Shown here one piece after another: positions 2,744 through 23,212 of a stretch of 64,000 bases of DNA (position 1 is the first letter of the stretch; every line of letters starts with the position of its first letter). The position numbers and the translations under genes are program-made. The notes under the pieces were generated by a model. That model searched no databases. It was not told the origin of the DNA and saw only the letters and a program-made list of their open reading frames with translations. This stretch comes from Arcobacter sp. (lineage in GTDB: Bacteria; Campylobacterota; Campylobacteria; Campylobacterales; Arcobacteraceae), in NCBI GenBank assembly GCA_020048055.1, contig JAIFNA010000003.1:62001-126000 (forward strand). Direction: 5' to 3'.

Positions 2744-3084
2744 TGCACGAATATAGTATAGTTCAATCTTTGCTTAATAGTTGTGAAGATAATGTAAAAC
2801 AAAATAACGCTTCAAAAGTTACCAAAGTGGTTGTTAAAATTGGGGTACTTAGTGGAGTTGAGCCAGACTTACTTGATGTTGCTTTTAATACTTTTAAAGA
2901 AAATACAATATGCCATGATGCTGTGTTTATTTTAAACATACAAAAAGTAATTATAAACTGTAAAAATTGTAATTCAACCTCAACACTTGAAAAACATGAA
3001 TATTCGTGTCCAACTTGTCAAAGCATTGAAGTTGAAATAATAGACGGTGAAGATATGTACCTTATGCAACTTGAACTAGAATAA
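2743..3084 (+). CDS. hypA: Hydrogenase nickel-insertion protein HypA
   Basis: 113 residues. The start is placed at the ATG overlapping the hypE stop, because the family begins MHE with His2 as a nickel ligand; an upstream TTG would add two residues and displace it. Zinc site cysteines are Cys73, Cys76, Cys89 and Cys92 (CKNC...CPTC). With HypB, HypA delivers nickel to the hydrogenase large subunit; in Helicobacter it also serves urease. It is the last gene of the hypE-hypA pair and faces the gene at 3136. Confidence 0.93.
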   Translation: MHEYSIVQSLLNSCEDNVKQNNASKVTKVVVKIGVLSGVEPDLLDVAFNTFKENTICHDAVFILNIQKVIINCKNCNSTSTLEKHEYSCPTCQSIEVEIIDGEDMYLMQLELE

Positions 3085-3135
3085 GTATATAAACCTTAAG
3101 TTCAGTTTCTTTAAGAAGTTAAGATTCAAACATTC

Positions 3136-3687
3136 TTAATGTTCATAACCTCTTTTATTGTGATGTTTTATATTATCCTTAACCTCTTTTTCATTATCGA
3201 GTAGCTCTTTTAATCTACTTTTTTGCTCATTATTTAGCGTGTTATAGATTTTTTCTATAATCATTGCTTGATGAGTTATCTTATTTTCTTTTGCCTCATT
3301 TTCCATCTCTATAAATTTTTGTGAATCAAATTGATGTTTACTAAAAGCTTCACTTAATGAATTATTTGTTGGCTTGTTGCTTTCTAATATGGTTTTAATC
3401 TCATTTTTTTGAGAGATAGAAAGTGATATTTTATCTATATTATGTAAAAAAAGTTTTACGCTATCGCCACCTTTTAAACCACATTTTTCACTACTACACC
3501 CTTGCATTTTATCTTTACAGCTATTTTTTCCACTACATCCTTTTGACTCATCTTTGTTTCCACAAGATGACTTATGTGACTTACAAGCTCCATCCATTTT
3601 CGCTTTGCAGCCATTTTCCATACCATTTGCTATCGTAAAAGTTACACCCAAAGTCAAAAGACCCGCTAGTAATTTGTTAATTTTCAT
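3136..3687 (-). CDS. Exported cysteine-rich Spy/CpxP-like protein
   Basis: 183 residues in three parts. A signal peptide covers about 1-20. A low-complexity segment at 27-69 carries seven cysteines (27, 35, 42, 51, 57, 64, 69) among Lys, Gly and Ser. A helical C-terminal half has two LTxxQ-like motifs, LSISQ (89-93) and LNNEQ (151-155), and a His-containing tail. The C-terminal half resembles the periplasmic Spy/CpxP/ZraP chaperone-sensor group; the cysteine-rich segment suggests metal binding (inference). No DUF692-type modifying enzyme is adjacent. The divergent neighbourhood holds no metal pump. Exact function is not known. Confidence 0.6.
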   Translation of the reverse strand: MKINKLLAGLLTLGVTFTIANGMENGCKAKMDGACKSHKSSCGNKDESKGCSGKNSCKDKMQGCSSEKCGLKGGDSVKLFLHNIDKISLSISQKNEIKTILESNKPTNNSLSEAFSKHQFDSQKFIEMENEAKENKITHQAMIIEKIYNTLNNEQKSRLKELLDNEKEVKDNIKHHNKRGYEH

Positions 3688-3759
3688 ATTCTCCCCTTTT
3701 GTTTGTTTATTGATAAAAGTATATATTTAAATAACTAATGAAATATAAATAATAAACCA

Positions 3760-5187
3760 TTAATTATAATCATTTACTAAAATATCCGCAGGTAAAGTTA
3801 TTATAAATTCTGCTCCTGTAAATATTTCTTTATTGTGTTCAAAAGTAATATTTTTTACATATATCGCTCCACCTAAATGTTCTGTTATTATCTGATATGA
3901 CATATGTAAACCAATCCCTGTCCCAATTGACTGATGTTTTGTTGTAAAATATGGCTCAAATATTTTATCAATAATATCATCTGGAATTCCACCGCCGCTA
4001 TCTTTGATTTTAATAAAAATATCTCCATCAACATAAGCATCAATTAAAATATATCCATCTTTGCCGATTGCATCTGTTGCATTTTTTACCATATTTACTA
4101 TAACTTGTCTAAGCTGATTTATATGCGTATTGATCTTAAAACTATCTACCTTTTTTATAAATTCTATATTTGAATTAATAAAAATTGCGTTAAACATACT
4201 ATCAACAATATCAAATATATCTTCTATATGTCCAACCTCTTTTGGTTTATCTGGTAGAAAAAGATCTCTAAAATTATCAATTGTAATAGATAGATACTCA
4301 GCATTTTCCAAAATCAAATCTGCATTAGTTTCTAATTTTTCAGATGTCATAAGACCTAAATCTTGATACACTCTAAGTCCACTTGCACAAGTTGTGATTA
4401 CATTTAGTGGCTGTCTCCACTGATGAGCAATATTTGAAATCATCTCACCCATAGATGCCATTTTTGCTTGCTGAAACATAAGTTTCTCTTGGATATGTAA
4501 CTCGTGTGTTCTTTGTACTACCGTCATCTCTAATTCATTTTTGATGCAACCCATATTGGATCTATAAATAAGAAAAAATGGAATGATTATTAAAAGATAG
4601 AATAACATCTCTAGAAATGATGACAACAACTTATTTTGCAAATACTCATCAATGTTACTAATATCAATATCTGCACCAACTACATATTTTGTCCCGTCAT
4701 TTGACACAAAAGGAATATATAAAGCATAAAAATCTCCCCATTTATCATGACACTCATCAAATGCAGATTTATTTTGTTTGAAAACTTCTCTAAGTATAGG
4801 GGATGCATCATTATAACTATCCCCAAAATGGGATATATTTGTTTTTGTAGCAATTTCATTATCAGTAGCGCTTGAAGCCGTAAAAATGATTTTATTATTA
4901 TCTTCAACCATTGTATAGATGTATTTAACGCCAAAAATTTTTGCCTGTTTTGAAAGGATTTCAATATTATGAAAATCTTCATCTTTTGTTATTTTGTCTT
5001 TTAGCATATTTTTATTGTGAAAGTTTTGTGATAATAAAAACGGTGTTATTTTTACACTTTTTAAGAGTAGTGAATTTATATGATTTATATAGTGTTCTTT
5101 TGCAGTTAAATAGTTTTGAGTGATATGAAACAATACAGCTAGCAGATAAAAGATAGCCGCAAAATAGTAATATTTTTTATAATTCAT
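3760..5187 (-). CDS. Membrane sensor histidine kinase (orphan)
   Basis: 475 residues. TM1 is at about 8-26, a periplasmic domain of about 155 residues resembles a Cache/PDC sensor, and TM2 is at about 190-208. A coiled linker leads to a kinase core with the H-box AHQWRQPLN (His255), N-box N369, G1 box DSGGG (396-400) and G2 box GTGIGL (422-427). This H-box form is typical of Campylobacterota kinases. No response regulator is adjacent, so its partner is elsewhere. An inverted repeat with 9-bp arms (5188-5196 / 5215-5223) lies directly before the start and covers part of the AGGA ribosome-binding site. The signal it senses is unknown. Confidence 0.88.
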   Translation of the reverse strand: MNYKKYYYFAAIFYLLAVLFHITQNYLTAKEHYINHINSLLLKSVKITPFLLSQNFHNKNMLKDKITKDEDFHNIEILSKQAKIFGVKYIYTMVEDNNKIIFTASSATDNEIATKTNISHFGDSYNDASPILREVFKQNKSAFDECHDKWGDFYALYIPFVSNDGTKYVVGADIDISNIDEYLQNKLLSSFLEMLFYLLIIIPFFLIYRSNMGCIKNELEMTVVQRTHELHIQEKLMFQQAKMASMGEMISNIAHQWRQPLNVITTCASGLRVYQDLGLMTSEKLETNADLILENAEYLSITIDNFRDLFLPDKPKEVGHIEDIFDIVDSMFNAIFINSNIEFIKKVDSFKINTHINQLRQVIVNMVKNATDAIGKDGYILIDAYVDGDIFIKIKDSGGGIPDDIIDKIFEPYFTTKHQSIGTGIGLHMSYQIITEHLGGAIYVKNITFEHNKEIFTGAEFIITLPADILVNDYN

Positions 5188-5223
5188 AATACAATCCTAA
5201 CAAATTTTGGACTTGATTGTATT
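5188..5223 (-). promoter_or_regulatory. Inverted repeat over the kinase ribosome-binding site
   Basis: Perfect 9-bp arms (AATACAATC and GATTGTATT) are separated by 18 nt. On the minus strand the second arm ends at the ATG of the sensor kinase and includes two bases of its AGGA ribosome-binding site. It could fold in the mRNA and limit translation, or be a DNA operator. As it is A/T-rich with a long loop, it may also be chance. Confidence 0.3.
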
Positions 5224-5272
5224 ATAAAATTGATTAATTCGTTATTGTATAAATGGCTTATTTGGCGGGGAA

Positions 5273-6937
<1,665 letters not shown>

Positions 6938-6942
6938 TTAAA

Positions 6943-7212
6943 TTATTTTGTAATCACACCTAAGATGTCTTTTTCAGTATCAAGCACTAAGTAATCAACA
7001 TCATCAAGCGTTAAACTTGTTCCAGCATATTTTGCATAAACAACAATATCACCAACTTTAATATCTTCACAACTACAACTAACAGCTACAACTTCAGCTT
7101 GTGTTGGCTTCTCTTTTGAAGCATTATCTGGTAAAAAAATACCACTTGAAGTTTGTTTTTTCTCCTCTGGTATTTTTGCTAATATTCTATTTCCTAATGG
7201 TTTAAAATTCAT
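6943..7212 (-). CDS. groES: Co-chaperonin GroES
   Basis: 89 residues, slightly short but within range. It has the family start ([12 protein letters not shown]), the mobile-loop segment and the C-terminal strand. It forms the heptameric lid of GroEL and is the first gene of groES-groEL. Upstream are a near-perfect sigma70 promoter and a CIRCE inverted repeat, so heat-shock control by an HrcA repressor is expected; hrcA itself is not in the window. Confidence 0.97.
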
Positions 7213-7247
7213 TTTGATCCCTTTTTTATTAATAATTTAAGCTAATT

Positions 7248-7274
7248 CTAGCACTCAGTCTACTTGAGTGCCAA
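7248..7274 (-). promoter_or_regulatory. CIRCE operator (HrcA site) of groES-groEL
   Basis: Inverted repeat CTAGCACTC-N9-GAGTGCCAA, matching the CIRCE consensus TTAGCACTC-N9-GAGTGCTAA at 16 of 18 arm positions. It lies directly downstream of the -10 element and covers the predicted transcription start. This is the usual placement for repression by HrcA. Confidence 0.95.
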
Positions 7275-7275
7275 A

Positions 7276-7304
7276 ATTATATATAAATATGTATTTGTTG
7301 TCAA
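7276..7304 (-). promoter_or_regulatory. Sigma70 promoter of groES-groEL
   Basis: Read on the minus strand: TTGACA at 7304-7299, a 17-bp spacer, and TATAAT at 7281-7276. Both hexamers and the spacing match the consensus exactly, which is rare in Campylobacterota, where -35 boxes are usually weak. CIRCE follows immediately. A strong promoter held down by a repressor fits a heat-shock operon. Confidence 0.9.
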
Positions 7305-7350
7305 TAGTTTTTAATTACAAACAAACTATATTTGGAGTAAGCACAAAGCA

Positions 7351-7385
7351 AAATAGGTTTGAAAATATTATTTCCAAACCTATTT
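7351..7385 (-). terminator. Hairpin after efp
   Basis: An 11-bp perfect stem (AAATAGGTTTG / CAAACCTATTT), extendable by a few A-T pairs, lies 37 bp beyond the efp stop. On the minus strand the stem runs into TATTTTGCTTT, a modest T-rich tail. It probably ends efp transcription before the groES promoter region. Confidence 0.6.
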
Positions 7386-7421
7386 ATTAAAAGAATAATC
7401 TATACAAAACTAGAAATTTAA

Positions 7422-7982
7422 TTATTTAACTTTTTCTAAATATTCTCCAGTTTTTGTATCACATTTTATAACATCACCTTCTACAATATGAAAAGGGATT
7501 TGAACGACAGCACCACTTTCTAAAGTTGCAGGTTTTTTACCACCTTGAGAATCACCTTTAAAGTTTGGCGGTGTTTCTACAATTCTAAGCTCAACAGTAT
7601 TAGGTGCTTCAACAGTAATAGCCTCACCTTTAAAAAACATCATATCTACACTCATACCATCAATAATCCATTTCGCAGTTTCACCAACTTGGTCATAACT
7701 AAGTGCAATTTGCTCATATGTTTCATTATCCATAAATTGTAACATCTCACCATCATCATACAAAAATTGCATAGTTTTTGGTTGCAAATCAGGCACTTCA
7801 CATTTATCACCAGCATGAAAAGTTTTTTCAATAGTTTTCCCATTGATAAAATTTTTGATTTTACATCTTACAAAAGCTGCACCTTTTCCTGGTTTTACAT
7901 GTTGATACTCAGTAATTCTGTATGGAATTCCATCAACTTCAATCTTTAAACCTTTTTTTAATTCACTCATACCTATTGCCAT
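7422..7982 (-). CDS. efp: Translation elongation factor P
   Basis: 186 residues with the three-domain EF-P layout. The tip loop [10 protein letters not shown] carries Lys33, the position that is lysylated in many bacteria and that reaches the peptidyl-transferase centre to relieve stalling at polyproline. The [11 protein letters not shown] start is kept because the helix-free N-terminal strand begins right after it; Met5 is a possible alternative. No epmA or epmB gene is nearby, so modification cannot be judged here. It is 18 bp downstream of serA and probably cotranscribed with it. Confidence 0.97.
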
Positions 7983-8000
7983 AAGTAGTTCTCCTATTTT

Positions 8001-9590
8001 TTAAATATTTACAAAATAAACAGCATTTGCTGCTTTTAAGTTTCTAAGTTTGTCTAAAATATCTTCTGTGATATTGTCATCAACAATAATTACAGCCAAA
8101 GCACCTTTTTTATTTCTTCCAAGTCTGAAATCTGCGATATTGATATTATTATCACCGAGTATTTTTCCAACATCACCAATAACACCAGGAACATCAGAAT
8201 TTTTAAATAAAATCATTTTTCCAGCAGGAATAACATCAACAATGTAATCATTAATATCTACTATTCTTTGAACATCTTCATCAAAAATAGTTCCACTAAT
8301 TTTGTTTACACCATGTTGTGTTGTAACTTTAATTGTCACTTTGTTTTTATATACACTATTGTTTGGATTTTCAGATGTTTCCAAAATAATATCTTTCTCG
8401 TGTGCAACAAAAGTAGCATTTACATAATTGATTTTTTCCAATCCGATAGATGGGGTTAAAGCTCCAACAGCAGCAAATGTAATTAAACTTTCAAGATATT
8501 GAGCAATTTCACCTTCAGCTTCAACTTTAATCGAAGCAATTGCTGATTTATCCATTTGAGCTATTGTAAATGCCATTTTTTGAGTAAGTTCAAGATATGG
8601 TTTTACAAAAGATGGGATTTTTGTTTCATCAATTGGAAGATTAAGTGCATGTGGATAACCTATTCCTCTAGCAGCTTCAATAGCATTTTCAGCTGCTTGA
8701 GTAGCAATTTTGTATTGAGATTCAACAGTGTTAGCTCCAAGGTGTGCTGTTACAATAATATTATCCAAATCAAGAAGCTTATTGCTAGTTGCTGGCTCTT
8801 TATTAAAAACATCAATCCCCGCGATTGCTATTTTCCCAGATTTTAAATTATTATACAAATCATCTTCATTGTACAATCCACCTCTTGCACAATTGATAAG
8901 TATTACTCCATCTTTCATCTTATCAATCTCTTTTTGAGTTATCATATTTACAGTTTCTGTATTTTTTGGTGTATGTATAGTAATAATATCACAAGCTAAA
9001 ATATCATCAAAATTTGTTGTATATTCGATACCCAAATCTGTTGCTTTTTTAGAATTAATATATGGGTCGTAAGTTATTACATCAGCCTCAAAAGATTTTG
9101 CTCTTAAAGCTACACGATGTCCAATATTACCAAATCCAATAACACCAATTTTTTTACCATAAAGCTCTTGTCCATACCAATCTTCTCTTTTCCAAAGTCT
9201 CTCATTTTTAAGTTGAGAATGAGCAAATGGCATCTTTCTCATGCAAGATAGTATATGAGCCATTGTAAGCTCAGTTGCTGCAATTGTATTTGCTGTTGGT
9301 ACATTCATAGCAATAATACCTCTTTGGCTACAACCACCAATATCAACATTATCAACACCAACTCCAGCTCTCACTATCGCTTTGAGATTTATACCAGCAT
9401 TTAAAAATCTCTCATCAACGTCAGTTGAGCTTCTAGTTATTACAACTTGTGCATCTTTGATAACATCAAGAAGCTTTACTTTATCAACATCAGCTGCAAA
9501 TACATAATTGATGTCAGCTGTATTTTTTAGTATCTCTAACCCACTTTCGTGGATATGATCACAAACTACAATTGTAGGTTTATTACTCAT
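8001..9590 (-). CDS. serA: D-3-phosphoglycerate dehydrogenase
   Basis: 529 residues, the long form. An N-terminal substrate domain surrounds a Rossmann domain with GVIGFGNIGHRVA, followed by an allosteric substrate-binding domain and a C-terminal ACT domain that senses serine. It catalyses the first step of serine synthesis, NAD-dependent oxidation of 3-phosphoglycerate. It sits 31 bp after rpsA and 18 bp before efp on the same strand, so rpsA-serA-efp may share a transcript. Confidence 0.96.
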   Translation of the reverse strand: MSNKPTIVVCDHIHESGLEILKNTADINYVFAADVDKVKLLDVIKDAQVVITRSSTDVDERFLNAGINLKAIVRAGVGVDNVDIGGCSQRGIIAMNVPTANTIAATELTMAHILSCMRKMPFAHSQLKNERLWKREDWYGQELYGKKIGVIGFGNIGHRVALRAKSFEADVITYDPYINSKKATDLGIEYTTNFDDILACDIITIHTPKNTETVNMITQKEIDKMKDGVILINCARGGLYNEDDLYNNLKSGKIAIAGIDVFNKEPATSNKLLDLDNIIVTAHLGANTVESQYKIATQAAENAIEAARGIGYPHALNLPIDETKIPSFVKPYLELTQKMAFTIAQMDKSAIASIKVEAEGEIAQYLESLITFAAVGALTPSIGLEKINYVNATFVAHEKDIILETSENPNNSVYKNKVTIKVTTQHGVNKISGTIFDEDVQRIVDINDYIVDVIPAGKMILFKNSDVPGVIGDVGKILGDNNINIADFRLGRNKKGALAVIIVDDNITEDILDKLRNLKAANAVYFVNI

Positions 9591-18306: not shown

Positions 18307-18906
18307 TTACAAAATACAATACCCCTCATCGATAACATTTCTAATAACATCCTCTTCAAGTTTACCTCTAAGTCGTCTTATCAATGCTCGAAGTCCGTCC
18401 AAAGTCATCGTTTTATTTTCATATACCGCTTCATCTATATTGGCATAAGTAGTTACTAAACCTTTATTTTCAACCAAAAGCATTAAAAATCTTCTCTCTT
18501 TTTTTGACAAAGTTGTATTTGGTTTGAGTTTTATCTCTTTGAGATTTTCACTCAGATTTGAAAAATGTAAATCTATTTTTAACCGCAATTCTTCCAAATG
18601 AAATGGTTTTTTAAGATAATCAATACAGCCAAAATTGTAGGCGCTTTTGATTGTTTGGATGTCAATATTGGATGAGATGATGATGATTTTTGCATTTTTT
18701 GATTGATTTTGGATGAGTTGTAAAAGTTCAAGTCCAGAGATATTTGGAACATTGATATCCATAATATACAAGTCATACATCGAATCGATTGCATCAATCA
18801 CATCATTGCCATCATAAAAAACATCAACACTATATCCACTATAATGAAGTGCATCACATATCGATTTATTTAAAGCTATATCATCTTCAAGGAGTAAAAT
18901 TTTCAT
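18307..18906 (-). CDS. Response regulator, OmpR-like
   Basis: 199 residues. The receiver domain has acidic residues Glu7, Asp8 and Asp9, phosphoacceptor Asp50 (in YIMDINVPN), and the conserved Lys100 (LKKPF). The short C-terminal part (about 130-199) is a compact winged helix with LDGLRALIRRLRGKL as the likely recognition helix. It pairs with the kinase gene directly upstream (14-bp gap). There is no Shine-Dalgarno sequence before the ATG. Instead, a palindrome and a -10 box at 18912-18947 would start transcription at the A of the ATG. It probably binds that palindrome and those at 20637 and 21797. Confidence 0.9.
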   Translation of the reverse strand: MKILLLEDDIALNKSICDALHYSGYSVDVFYDGNDVIDAIDSMYDLYIMDINVPNISGLELLQLIQNQSKNAKIIIISSNIDIQTIKSAYNFGCIDYLKKPFHLEELRLKIDLHFSNLSENLKEIKLKPNTTLSKKERRFLMLLVENKGLVTTYANIDEAVYENKTMTLDGLRALIRRLRGKLEEDVIRNVIDEGYCIL

Positions 18907-18911
18907 AATGA

Positions 18912-18950
18912 TTTATAGCATTATGAAATGTCATCGGAATGACATTTGAA
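18912..18950 (-). promoter_or_regulatory. Palindromic operator and -10 box of the response regulator gene
   Basis: Perfect inverted repeat with 9-bp arms, AAATGTCAT (18926-18934) and ATGACATTT (18939-18947), spacer of 4. On the minus strand it reads TTCAAA-N1-GTCAT-N4-ATGAC, then exactly 12 bp, then TATAAA (18917-18912). The same arrangement occurs at 20628-20668 and 21788-21828. The site lies in the last codons of the kinase gene. The predicted start point coincides with the regulator ATG. Confidence 0.7.
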
Positions 18951-20690
18951 CAGATAGATAAAAATATTTTCATTTTTTTCATTATTTTTACTATTTGAAA
19001 CCACATCAAAGATGATATTGTATTTTTGTGAGATATTTTTGACGATATTTAGCCCCAAACCATATCCACCCACAACATTATTTTCTCTGTAATATTTGCT
19101 AAATATCTTATTTGTGTTATCGATTCTTACCCCAAAGTTTTTAAATTGCAGTTTATTTTCTCTAAGGAGTATCTCAATAGTGCTATTTGGAACACTGTAT
19201 TTGATGGCATTTGAGATGTTATTGTCGATAAGCCTTATAAGTTCAGTTTTCGACATCATCACTTGACACTCACTATTGATATCTGAAACTATTTTCCTAC
19301 CGTTCATTGAAGCTATTTTTAAAAAATATTCGATTCTCTCTTCTACAATCTCTTCCAAATCCAAAATCTCCACCACATAATCTTCTGCCCCTTTTTTTAT
19401 CATAAACTCCATATCTTCATACGATTTATGCAAAATCTTCACAGCACTATCGATTTGATTTGAGTATTCATCTTCCCCAAGTTGAGCTTTTTTTAAATCG
19501 TTATTTAAAGTGATGATGCTTAGTGGAGTTTTGAGTTCGTGCATCGCACTTTGGATAAATCTATCTTGATTGGAAAGCGTTATCTCTTTTGTTCTCACAA
19601 GTGAGATGATAACAATCGCAATAAGCCCAAAAACAGTTAAAATAGCAAACAAATAATCAACATTTTGTATCTCCTGAAGATGTGCAGTTTCATCTAAAAT
19701 GATAGAAAATATTATCGTTGTATCATCAAAGATTGAGCTTTTTGTAGAAAAATAAAGAGCATGAAAGTGGACACCATCTTTTATAAATTCACTTGAATAG
19801 ATAGTTTTCTCTTTGAGTGTAGAGGCTACTTTTTGCCCCTCTTGTATCCTCTTTTGAATCTCCTCTAAAGTTGGCTTATATGATGGAAAATCTTTTAAAA
19901 TCAAATCATTGATAAACCCCGTATTTACTTTGATAAAAGCTTTTGCTTCTACGATATTTGGGTAATTATTTAAAACTTCTCGAATAGACTCTAATTCGAT
20001 TTTGGTTTGTGGGTAGTTGTAGCTAACTTGTAAAATCCCAGCTTTATCTTTTGTGTAGTATGAATCGCTAAATGAGAAGAAATTTTTTGCTGATTTTTCA
20101 AAAATAGGGGTGCTGACACCTATTTGATTATTTGTGAAATGCTCATCAAACTCTCTTTTTGCAAAAGAAAGATTGAAATTCAAATCTTTTAGATAAGTTG
20201 TATTTTTGATAACATACTCTTTGTTTGAGATGTAAATATTATACGGTTTGTTTTTGCACCCTTGATTTATCATATCGTGAATTTGTTTGAGATTTAAAGA
20301 AAGTGGGTCTTGGTTTGAAGTGGCTAGATAATTTAGCACTTTTTGGTGTTTGGTTTCCAAAATATCTTTTTGTTTGGTGTAATCATAAAGCAATTTTGAA
20401 AGCATCCCATCGACATCATTTTTGATTTTGTAAAAGAGTATTTGAGTATCTTTTTCGTGAGATTTTTGGATACTTTTCGTTAAAAGTCTATACCCTACAA
20501 AGTCCAAAACTAAAAATATCAAAACAATAAAAAATATAAATGATGAGAATTTGAGAGTTTTGATTTGAAGCCTTTTTGTAATAGTGTCGTATAAATTAGC
20601 AAAATAGTAGCAAATTTTAACAAAAAACTTCAAAAAGTCATTTCTATGACATTTGAATTCTGTATTATGACTCGTAAAAAATAAAAGCAT
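18921..20690 (-). CDS. Membrane sensor histidine kinase of the two-component system
   Basis: Up to 589 residues. TM1 is at about 49-68, followed by a periplasmic sensor region of about 275 residues and TM2 at about 346-364. There is no obvious HAMP; the H-box is SAMHELKTPLS (His384), with an ATPase domain (NNISNAIKYS, GYGLGLNI) at the C terminus. The start is uncertain: the first 45 residues of this frame look non-native and overlap the plus-strand operator/promoter at 20628-20668, but no good later ATG exists (TTG at 20633 is possible). It forms an operon with the regulator at 18307. The ligand is unknown. Confidence 0.87.
   Translation of the reverse strand: MLLFFTSHNTEFKCHRNDFLKFFVKICYYFANLYDTITKRLQIKTLKFSSFIFFIVLIFLVLDFVGYRLLTKSIQKSHEKDTQILFYKIKNDVDGMLSKLLYDYTKQKDILETKHQKVLNYLATSNQDPLSLNLKQIHDMINQGCKNKPYNIYISNKEYVIKNTTYLKDLNFNLSFAKREFDEHFTNNQIGVSTPIFEKSAKNFFSFSDSYYTKDKAGILQVSYNYPQTKIELESIREVLNNYPNIVEAKAFIKVNTGFINDLILKDFPSYKPTLEEIQKRIQEGQKVASTLKEKTIYSSEFIKDGVHFHALYFSTKSSIFDDTTIIFSIILDETAHLQEIQNVDYLFAILTVFGLIAIVIISLVRTKEITLSNQDRFIQSAMHELKTPLSIITLNNDLKKAQLGEDEYSNQIDSAVKILHKSYEDMEFMIKKGAEDYVVEILDLEEIVEERIEYFLKIASMNGRKIVSDINSECQVMMSKTELIRLIDNNISNAIKYSVPNSTIEILLRENKLQFKNFGVRIDNTNKIFSKYYRENNVVGGYGLGLNIVKNISQKYNIIFDVVSNSKNNEKNENIFIYLFKCHSDDIS
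20628..20668 (+). promoter_or_regulatory. Palindromic operator and -10 box driving the membrane protein gene
   Basis: TTCAAA-N2-GTCAT (20637-20641), spacer TTCT, ATGAC (20646-20650), 12 bp, then TATTAT (20663-20668). About 30 bp are nearly identical to the site at 21788-21828. The palindrome centre would lie near -32, over the -35 region. It points to the gene at 20808 and leaves a leader of about 130 nt. It also lies inside the 5' part of the kinase frame on the other strand. Confidence 0.7.
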
Positions 20691-20807
20691 AGCCTGGAAA
20701 ATTGCTAATTATTTTAATTTGATAGCGATGACACTAAAAGAGTGTGAACATAGAGATAAATTACATAATAGTTAAATATCTCATTAATTTTAAAAGGAAT
20801 GGAGCAT

Positions 20808-21356
20808 ATGGAAGAATATTCAAAAAATGAAGAATTTGGTAATCAAGGAATACATCGAGTTAGAGACCCTTTATCTATTTTGATAGTGTTGGCATTTATT
20901 GCCATGGAAGTATTTGTTGTTTACAAGATGATTGAGGGTTCAAATGGTTTTGGTGGTTTTGGTGATTTTCTAATCATTATTGCAATTTTTGTTTTACCAG
21001 TATTAAGATTAATTGCCATTTGGAACGGGGTCGAGATTGATTATGACAATGGAATATTAACACTACCAGGTGGCGGAATATCAGCTAATTCAATCTTTGA
21101 TTATCTCAATCCTGTATTTATGTTTCAGTATTTCCTTAGAAAAGAAGTAAAACTTAGTGAAATTAAAAGCATCAGCACATCGGTAACTTCAAAAGTATAT
21201 GGTGACAGTGGCAAAAGGATGTATAAATATTTAATATCTATCATAGGTAAATTTGGGGGAATTACATTGACTTATAAAGATGAAAACAAGCGAGATGAGA
21301 TTTATAGTTTGATTAGAGAGATTAATCGAATGGGAACTCCATTTATGCGTTCTTAA
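20808..21356 (+). CDS. Unknown membrane protein with PH-like cytoplasmic part
   Basis: 182 residues. Two hydrophobic segments at about 20-40 and 50-65 are separated by a Gly/Phe loop. The C-terminal 110 residues (from NGVEIDYDNGILTLPGG) have the alternating strand pattern and final helix of bacterial PH-like (YdbS/YcdB-type) domains; this is a fold-level guess. The ATG at 20808 is preferred because AGGA lies 9 bases before it; the ATG at 20799 is too close. It is probably controlled by the adjacent two-component system through the site at 20628-20668. Function unknown. Confidence 0.7.
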   Translation: MEEYSKNEEFGNQGIHRVRDPLSILIVLAFIAMEVFVVYKMIEGSNGFGGFGDFLIIIAIFVLPVLRLIAIWNGVEIDYDNGILTLPGGGISANSIFDYLNPVFMFQYFLRKEVKLSEIKSISTSVTSKVYGDSGKRMYKYLISIIGKFGGITLTYKDENKRDEIYSLIREINRMGTPFMRS

Positions 21357-21698: not shown

Positions 21699-21787
21699 TG
21701 ATTATCCTTTTGTTTTGTAGTTTTATGGTAATAACTTAGCTAAGAAATAAGAACAATTTTCTTAATTTTAAAAATTTTTCTCAAAAA

Positions 21788-21828
21788 CTTCAAAAAGTCA
21801 TTTCTATGACATTCCATTTTTGTATCAT
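21788..21828 (+). promoter_or_regulatory. Palindromic operator and -10 box of the lipoprotein gene
   Basis: TTCAAA-N2-GTCAT (21797-21801), TTCT, ATGAC (21806-21810), 12 bp, then TATCAT (21823-21828). Spacing is identical to that at 20628-20668 and on the minus strand at 18912-18950. The leader to the ATG at 21857 is about 22 nt and holds AAGGAG. Confidence 0.7.
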
Positions 21829-21856: not shown

Positions 21857-23212
21857 ATGAAACTAAAAAATTTAGTACAAACGATGACACTTTCTATTTT
21901 AGCAAGTGCAATGTTAATTGGTTGTGGTGGTGGAAGCGATAGTGCAGCACCAGTAGATGATATACAAACAGGAACTTTTATCGATGCACCTGTAAAAGGG
22001 TTGTATTTTAAAACAGCAACACAACAAGGCTACACAAACGATAGTGGAGAGTTTAGCTATAAAGCAGGTGAAACAGTAGAGTTTAAACTTGGAAATTTAT
22101 CACTAGGAACTGTAAGTGCTGGTGATTTGATTAGCCCTTATAAAATGGCAGGAATTCTAAGTTCTAGTGACAGTAATATTTCAACTAACATAGCATTATT
22201 GCTTCAAAATTTAGATGGCAATAGAACAAATACAGCTATGCTTGATGTGTCAAAATTAAAAGATATGAATTTAAGTGATTTTAATTTATCGGTGGGTAGT
22301 GCCACTTTCGAAACATTATTGTCAAATAAATTAACAGCTGGAAATTTTGATAACTATATTAATTCTAATGATAAATCATTGTTAACGATAGCTACAGTAA
22401 AACAATCTATGAAAACATTTGTCCAATCAAAAGAAGCAGAAATAAACAATCCAACTAAATTGATTGGTAAGTCATATGTCGGAATTGAAGGAAATGATAT
22501 TTTAGGTTACGAAAAAAGAGATTTCACATTGGTTTGGAATGATTCAACAGTAAGCGGAAAATATGAGGGAGACTCGTTTTCTGGAAGCTATACCGTTACA
22601 GCAGATAAAATCATAAAAATAACTTTTGATGATGGCGATACTGATAATATTAAAATTATTGATTTTTCTCCAAATGTAGTTGCAGTTTGTTCAGCAGATA
22701 CTGAAGAAGAGGCAAAAGCTTGTACTGAAGCAACTAGCTATTGGGTGGCATCAAATATTGCAGATACATTTATAGCAACAAAAAATAGTACCTCGACAAC
22801 TATACTAAAAAATAAATCTTTAGTGACAAATTTTAGTGAGTTGCAGAATAAAACATTTGGTCATATAAATGGTCATTCAACATTTTCAATCAATCAAAAT
22901 GGTGATATCTCATCTACCGATTTTGCACAAGGTAATACTTCTTATAAAGCTACATTCAATAATGGTGCTTTAAATATTACTGGGATTGATACATACCAAA
23001 ATAATGAAGCTCTTGATGACACTTATGCAGTCTATAAATATGATTTAACGGGTGCAATACTAAATGAAAAACAATTTAGTCAACTATTTTATAACAATGC
23101 TCAATATAGTAACAAGATTTACACATTTACTAGTGGTAGTATGTATTGTAGTATGTTATGGGATCAATGCTGGCTTGATGAAACAGCTACAGCACAAGCT
23201 AATTCAAAATAA
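21857..23212 (+). CDS. Large lipoprotein of unknown function
   Basis: 451 residues. The signal peptide ends in a lipobox LIGC with Cys23, followed by GGG and an acidic linker, as in outer-membrane lipoproteins. Residues about 38-85 (FIDAPVKGLYF...NDSGEFSYKAGETVEFKLG) match a repeat seen at the N terminus of many marine proteobacterial lipoproteins, a carboxypeptidase-regulatory-like beta sandwich. The remainder is beta-rich with scattered cysteines near 275-290 and 435-440. AAGGAG precedes the ATG. The upstream operator suggests induction by the two-component system at 18307-20690. Role unknown; surface or periplasmic sensing or binding is possible. Confidence 0.8.
   Translation: MKLKNLVQTMTLSILASAMLIGCGGGSDSAAPVDDIQTGTFIDAPVKGLYFKTATQQGYTNDSGEFSYKAGETVEFKLGNLSLGTVSAGDLISPYKMAGILSSSDSNISTNIALLLQNLDGNRTNTAMLDVSKLKDMNLSDFNLSVGSATFETLLSNKLTAGNFDNYINSNDKSLLTIATVKQSMKTFVQSKEAEINNPTKLIGKSYVGIEGNDILGYEKRDFTLVWNDSTVSGKYEGDSFSGSYTVTADKIIKITFDDGDTDNIKIIDFSPNVVAVCSADTEEEAKACTEATSYWVASNIADTFIATKNSTSTTILKNKSLVTNFSELQNKTFGHINGHSTFSINQNGDISSTDFAQGNTSYKATFNNGALNITGIDTYQNNEALDDTYAVYKYDLTGAILNEKQFSQLFYNNAQYSNKIYTFTSGSMYCSMLWDQCWLDETATAQANSK

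Follow-up and report, generated by a model that had tools for sequence, protein, structure and literature searches.

A probable self-activated, leaderless promoter for a response regulator within the 3' end of an adjoining kinase gene in Campylobacterales

A response regulator gene on the minus strand of the 64-kb window (the whole stretch of DNA analysed) probably has its own autoactivated promoter, lying inside the adjoining kinase gene at its 3' end and yielding a leaderless mRNA, and probably shares its box-dependent control with a few neighbouring genes. The sequence-level basis for this assessment comprises the promoter array, the conservation of that array, the absence of a Shine-Dalgarno (SD) sequence and the local clustering of boxes. 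We propose that the regulator gene would be transcribed from a separate promoter inside the 3' end of the kinase gene, where the phosphorylated regulator would bind a tandem TGNCA-N6-TGNCA box. This box may replace a -35 element and aid RNA polymerase at a -10 element located 11 nt downstream. The transcript is predicted to begin at the ATG, with its A as the expected start, or within about two bases of it, and the regulator would be translated from this leaderless mRNA. The regulator may also activate a few neighbouring genes via identical arrays of box and -10 followed by ordinary leaders. The features of the regulator-kinase locus are as follows.

18307..18906, minus strand: response regulator of OmpR/PhoB type, 199 aa, predicted leaderless (Pfam Response_reg and Trans_reg_C)
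18921..20564, minus strand: sensor histidine kinase, from a putative ATC start (Pfam HATPase_c above cut-off, HisKA below cut-off)
18940..18944, minus strand: first half-site, TGTCA, within the last kinase codons
18929..18933, minus strand: second half-site, TGACA, 11 bp past the first; both together form the palindrome at 18926-18947
18912..18917, minus strand: -10 element, TATAAA, exactly 11 nt past the second half-site and 5 nt (TCATT) before the ATG
18904..18906, minus strand: regulator start codon ATG, with A 18906 as the transcription start predicted from the position of the -10

The regulator carries a receiver domain (PF00072, 82.7 bits) and a Trans_reg_C winged helix (PF00486, 34.8 bits), which identify it as OmpR/PhoB type, and its N-terminus, MKILLLEDD, is kept among relatives. 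The kinase stop codon, TAA (18923-18921, minus strand), lies 14 nt 5' of the regulator ATG. A preliminary description of this DNA had reported a -10-like TATAAA just before the ATG, and this element is indeed present at 18917-18912, with no coordinate in need of correction. That description had also placed an operator in the last codons of the kinase. Its position holds, as a perfect 22-bp palindrome, AAATGTCAT-TCCG-ATGACATTT (in full, AAATGTCATTCCGATGACATTT), occupies 18947-18926 of the minus strand inside the final kinase codons. The palindrome does not hold as the element itself, because what is conserved instead is an 11-bp direct repeat: many relatives carry the half-sites TGCCA and TGACA, neither being the inverse of the other, whereas the direct repeat with its 11-bp period is kept by all. 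A tandem site of this kind, as in OmpR/PhoB-type regulators, is thus a sequence feature of both the window and its relatives. Comparison of these sites indicates that the conserved operator is the 11-bp direct repeat, of which the window palindrome is the special case TGTCA/TGACA.

To define this conservation, 129 loci were gathered with their upstream DNA. Removal of eight duplicate, re-fetched or window stretches (L001, L006-L011, L014) and ten weak matches (L004, L005, L042-L049) left 111 loci plus the window, and addition of L189 gave 113 regulator genes. Column counts exclude L041, a near copy of L039, and some of the comparison genomes are fragmentary. The array TGNCA-N6-TGNCA-N11-TAnnnT-N5-7-ATG is found in 16 of the 113 regulator genes, the window's included, with N6 and N11 invariant. 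These fixed spacings lend support to the earlier proposal of an internal promoter that has the start codon at its expected start point. Departures are small: the window -10 ends in A where T is usual, and L039, L129, L015 and L021 miss one or two half-site letters. Over the 11 fixed letters the boxed genes, which were chosen by eye from box and -10, score 9-11, versus at most 6 in the 97 others. Twelve of the boxed genes belong to the window's family, two come from genomes named Sulfurovum, one from a Campylobacterales bacterium and one from a genome of another family (G405, family f6), such that the array spans at least two families. Protein identity to the window regulator is approximately 41-65% in the tblastn matches and 56% for L189. 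A profile search of 398 genomes yielded matches in 79 at 1e-50; among the 22 of these loci inspected upstream, the array is carried only by the window, L216 (the L028 gene), L210 (the L189 gene) and L209, where the 75 nt leading up to the start look identical to those of L039.

The distance from the kinase stop to the ATG is 8-18 nt for 10 of the 16 boxed loci and 35 nt for L015. In the other five (L039, L040, L041, L129 and L189), the gene directly upstream is not the kinase. A different gene ends 92-100 nt upstream in L039, L040 and L041, encoding a TonB plug domain in L039 (Pfam), and approximately 93 nt upstream in L189, and L129 has no ORF of more than 100 codons ending within 150 nt upstream of the regulator. 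Because the array is unchanged where the upstream gene is not the kinase, it is a feature of the DNA and does not simply follow from kinase coding. The array is likewise unchanged in L021, although a different reading frame of the kinase runs through the repeat there.

A -10 matching at 5/6 or better is present in 14 of the 16 boxed genes and 4 of the 97 others, a partly circular comparison given that the boxed set was picked on box and -10. For a less circular test, every TGNCA-N6-TGNCA in 171 kb around 15 loci was considered, with no -10 required. This gave 19 distinct box sites, regulator promoters included. On one strand or the other, a -10 matching at 5/6 or better stands at exactly +11 in 15 of them; any other spacing from 3 to 22, with both strands summed, gives at most 3. 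Conservation of this kind shows a selected element and says nothing on the sign of its action. The fixed N11 spacing, in turn, suggests contact between the regulator and polymerase, and hence activation.

The absence of an SD sequence before the regulator ATG, also noted in the preliminary description, was borne out by a duplex energy of +1.6 between an anti-SD sequence and the region 20 to 4 nt before the ATG. The median energy is -0.05 for the 16 boxed regulators versus -3.7 for the 97 others (p 8e-9, with relatives entering as non-independent draws). In all 16 boxed regulators, the window's included, the -10 sits 5-7 nt from the ATG, too close for an SD to fit, irrespective of the exact nearby base at which transcription begins. 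We infer leaderless translation of the regulator from this position of the -10 relative to the ATG only. An AAGGA located 15-19 nt before the ATG in the boxed locus L015 counts against the leaderless reading. Ten unboxed regulators of the same clade, namely L128 plus nine from genus g2, each have GGAG, AAGGA or AGGGG. On a tree, the boxed or unboxed state requires at least 3 changes, versus a mean of 14.4 when shuffled, with the direction of change not given by the tree. In a second regulator of the same genome as the window, L003 (G000:C10:77192-77838), five nt separate a TATAAT from the ATG (TATAATTTTTTATG) and there is no box; this is possibly another leaderless regulator.

A -10 adjoining an ATG is by itself at chance level in this genome: TATAAT-N5-7-ATG has 149 matches genome-wide versus 168 for the reversed pattern. 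Likewise, a sigma70 consensus scan gave 59 promoters versus 52 +/- 7 in shuffles, with no excess in the region. The array stands above chance because the whole of it is conserved across relatives. An order-wide search for box, -10, N5-7 and ATG found matches in 43 of 398 genomes, against 12 control matches (hand count). When 30 of these loci were translated, 25 had no ORF of more than 40 aa at the ATG, and three of the five longer ones encode a window-type regulator.

Additional copies of the box lie close to the regulator. The palindrome with up to 3 mismatches occurs 3 times in the window versus 0.26 expected, and the 2.0-Mb genome holds four such sites (0, 1, 2 and 3 mismatches), of which the best three are at this locus, within 3 kb. 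The palindrome copies at 20633 and 21793 point away from the kinase, toward plus-strand genes. The only other good box copies in the window genome are these, within 3 kb, facing two genes with ordinary leaders, as listed below.

20636..20668, plus strand: box 2, AGTCA-N6-TGACA-N11-TATTAT, facing the 185-aa membrane-protein gene
20799..21356, plus strand: predicted target 1, membrane protein, 185 aa from the first ATG (alternative start ATG 20808)
21796..21828, plus strand: box 3, AGTCA-N6-TGACA-N11-TATCAT, facing the lipoprotein gene
21857..23212, plus strand: predicted target 2, lipoprotein-like secreted protein, 451 aa, with a leader and SD AAGGAG

The 185-aa protein has no Pfam or NCBIfam match and the 451-aa protein no Pfam match. 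From the box at the regulator's own start and this local clustering, we infer binding of the regulator to its own promoter. The idea that the kinase, too, has a boxed promoter was dropped, as the minus strand shows no -10 at N11 from box 2. Box 2 and box 3 each lie in about 30 bp of almost the same sequence (AAAACTTCAAAAAGTCATTTCTATGACATT; window 20620-20655 and 21780-21815), which looks as if one promoter had been duplicated.

The predicted leaderless layout is, among box promoters, specific to the regulator. The distance from -10 to ATG is 5-7 nt in 15 of 15 regulator promoters found by script, and 6 nt in L021, which the pattern missed. For nine other box promoters that are followed by an ORF start no more than 200 nt away, the distance is 23-130 nt, and three more sites have no such start; this list was made by requiring a -10 at N11, and cannot itself prove the N11 spacing. 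Eight of the nine non-regulator box genes have an SD energy of -3.1 or lower. The first ATG of the 185-aa gene in the window scores +1.7, and ATG 20808 lies nine bases on.

Strict matches to box plus -10 number 34 in 12 genomes with a boxed regulator, 8 of them regulator promoters (reversed pattern, 4), and 26 in 12 genomes without a close relative (reversed pattern, 1). The first total is hardly higher than the second, so other regulators must use or mimic the motif. The reversed box is probably a poor control as well, owing to its composition (TG/CA versus AC/GT). The genome-wide count is therefore no evidence for the window regulator, and only clustering near the regulator is informative. 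Of the remaining strict matches in the genomes that have a boxed regulator, 8 lie within approximately 5.2 kb of it (two each in G012, G036 and G057, one each in G092 and G025) and 18 elsewhere in approximately 30 Mb (both hand counts).

Flagellins, a FlgE-like protein and an autotransporter are among the products of the genes that follow the nearby boxes. Box promoters precede flagellin or FlgE-like genes beside the two-component system in L202 (promoter 6763, gene 6831-8282), L204 (6026, 6088-7524) and L200 (2688, 2747-5908), a hint that an additional filament or surface structure is under this control. In L190 (1765-5151) and L193 (5196-7451), the same TGNCA-N6-TGNCA-N11-TAnnnT boxes precede a different two-component pair, found in other families, or its neighbours, several of them with ordinary leaders.

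The same leaderless promoter could instead be repressed by its product. By occupying the -35 region (centre near -31), the regulator would block polymerase and hold its own level constant. Negative autoregulation is common among bacterial regulators, and the geometry of a box that overlies the -35 region of its own promoter is suited to it. However, box and -10 are 11 nt apart in every one of the 16 regulator promoters and, by strict -10, at 15 of 19 box sites, which counts against repression because steric blocking would tolerate other spacings. In addition, no common -35-like hexamer is evident in the aligned boxed promoters, and sites of the Helicobacter pylori regulator HP1043 are placed alike where no -35 exists, according to the passages on it in PMC5253667. 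We consider repression unlikely and favour positive autoregulation, given that the layout matches that of HP1043 and resembles that of PhoB.

Two further explanations were considered. The regulator might be only the second gene of a kinase-regulator transcript, with its translation coupled to the kinase stop 14 nt upstream and the -10 being AT-rich noise. The short stop-to-ATG distances in 10 of the 16 boxed loci would suit such coupling, as would the lack of enrichment of TATAAT-N5-7-ATG in the genome, but the array is kept in the five loci with a non-kinase upstream gene, box and -10 stay exactly N11 apart, and the ten unboxed relatives of the same clade have an SD. This explanation is improbable as a result. 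Still further from likely, and hardly credible, is an RNA hairpin at the kinase 3' end that would act as an attenuator or as a site of processing or protein binding. The window sequence could fold into a stem of 9 bp capped by a loop of 4 bases; yet the inverted symmetry is lost in relatives (TGCCA...TGACA) where the direct repeat is kept, no T-run follows the palindrome, and there is neither a call by the terminator scan nor an Rfam match at this site. Since conservation is confined to the direct repeat, neither the hairpin nor an operator of inverted-repeat type was retained.

The kinase gene seems to have an unusual start of its own. N-terminal comparison places it at ATC 20564-20562 (minus strand), with AAGG at 20574-20571, six nt upstream, and the window kinase thus seems to start at ATC. 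In its nearest relative, L127, the same codon is ATA, with GGAG six nt upstream and a TGA two codons before, and thirteen further kinases examined have an ATG or TTG available at that start position. Loci of the Sulfurovum type (L039, L040, L041 and L189) differ in other respects: the regulator ORF is approximately 400 aa with a C-terminal GGDEF (Pfam on L039 only), and the gene order is kinase, TonB-plug-like protein, regulator. Genes resembling ZnuA and ZnuC (named by eye) follow in L039-L041, and also in L128.

A leaderless, self-controlled promoter held at fixed geometry across divergent Campylobacterales would offer a natural setting for the question of why genes become leaderless. Sister genes with an SD in the same clade would make both modes comparable on the same protein, and an exact 5' end and a small regulon are predicted from sequence alone. 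We also entertain, as a tentative and rather doubtful extension, a built-in amplifier. The kinase would be kept scarce by its non-canonical start (ATC; ATA in the nearest relative) and the regulator supplied in excess from the autoactivated leaderless promoter, giving a switch-like response with SD-independent initiation (70S or stress-tolerant). If this were true, the box in the last kinase codons would mean that regulator binding constrains the C-terminus of a protein.

Several known systems share parts of this arrangement. The consensus half-site of PhoB is TGTCA, placed before the -10. The Pho box of Escherichia coli PhoB is described, in the part of PMC3978041 that concerns it, as 22 bp made up of two 11-bp direct repeats. 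Paired 11-bp repeats are likewise found in the window, but its system bears no sign of phosphate sensing, and the regulator falls short of the NCBIfam PhoB models TIGR02154 (50.6 bits, cut-off 296.2) and NF053854 (66.9 bits, cut-off 270). Lambda cI, a phage repressor with inverted-repeat operators, is positively autoregulated. Its expression from PRM is named as leaderless in a passage of PMC9938897. The protein is unrelated to the window regulator, and the likeness consists of leaderless expression combined with positive autoregulation.

HP1043 (HsrA) of H. pylori, as presented in the passages on it in PMC5253667, recognizes direct repeats of 11 bp that directly precede the -10 and stand in for a -35, and it binds its own promoter. 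It belongs to the same phylum as the window regulator, both are receiver/winged-helix proteins of OmpR type, and in both the repeats before the -10 are 11 bp (one helical turn) apart. However, HP1043 is an orphan without a kinase and recognizes the half-site TTTAAG, whereas the window regulator has a kinase gene alongside and TGNCA half-sites; with neither orphan status nor TTTAAG repeats, it does not qualify as an HP1043/HsrA orthologue. Leaderless expression forms no part of those passages.

In Campylobacter jejuni, where they have been mapped, and in H. pylori, leaderless mRNAs have ATG starts with TAnAaT directly upstream and no RBS, and swaps between leaderless and leadered orthologues split operons, according to the relevant portions of PMC3847290. 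These mRNAs resemble the present case in their ATG, adjoining -10 and lack of an RBS, but the arrangement described there includes no regulator box, and the terms response regulator and two-component are absent from the main text of that paper. In Streptomyces, the part of PMC5487470 on MtrA describes a leaderless transcript from the ATG and a MtrA ChIP peak near -50 that suggests autoregulation. The likeness is that of a leaderless response regulator; MtrA is from Actinobacteria and encoded in a regulator-first operon, mtrAB-lpqB, rather than nested in a kinase gene. A fused array of box, -10 and ATG nested at the end of a kinase gene was not described in the literature listed by searches, most of which was covered short of full text. 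Already known from the portions of these papers cited here are leaderless mRNAs in this phylum and a leaderless, probably autoregulated response regulator in Streptomyces.
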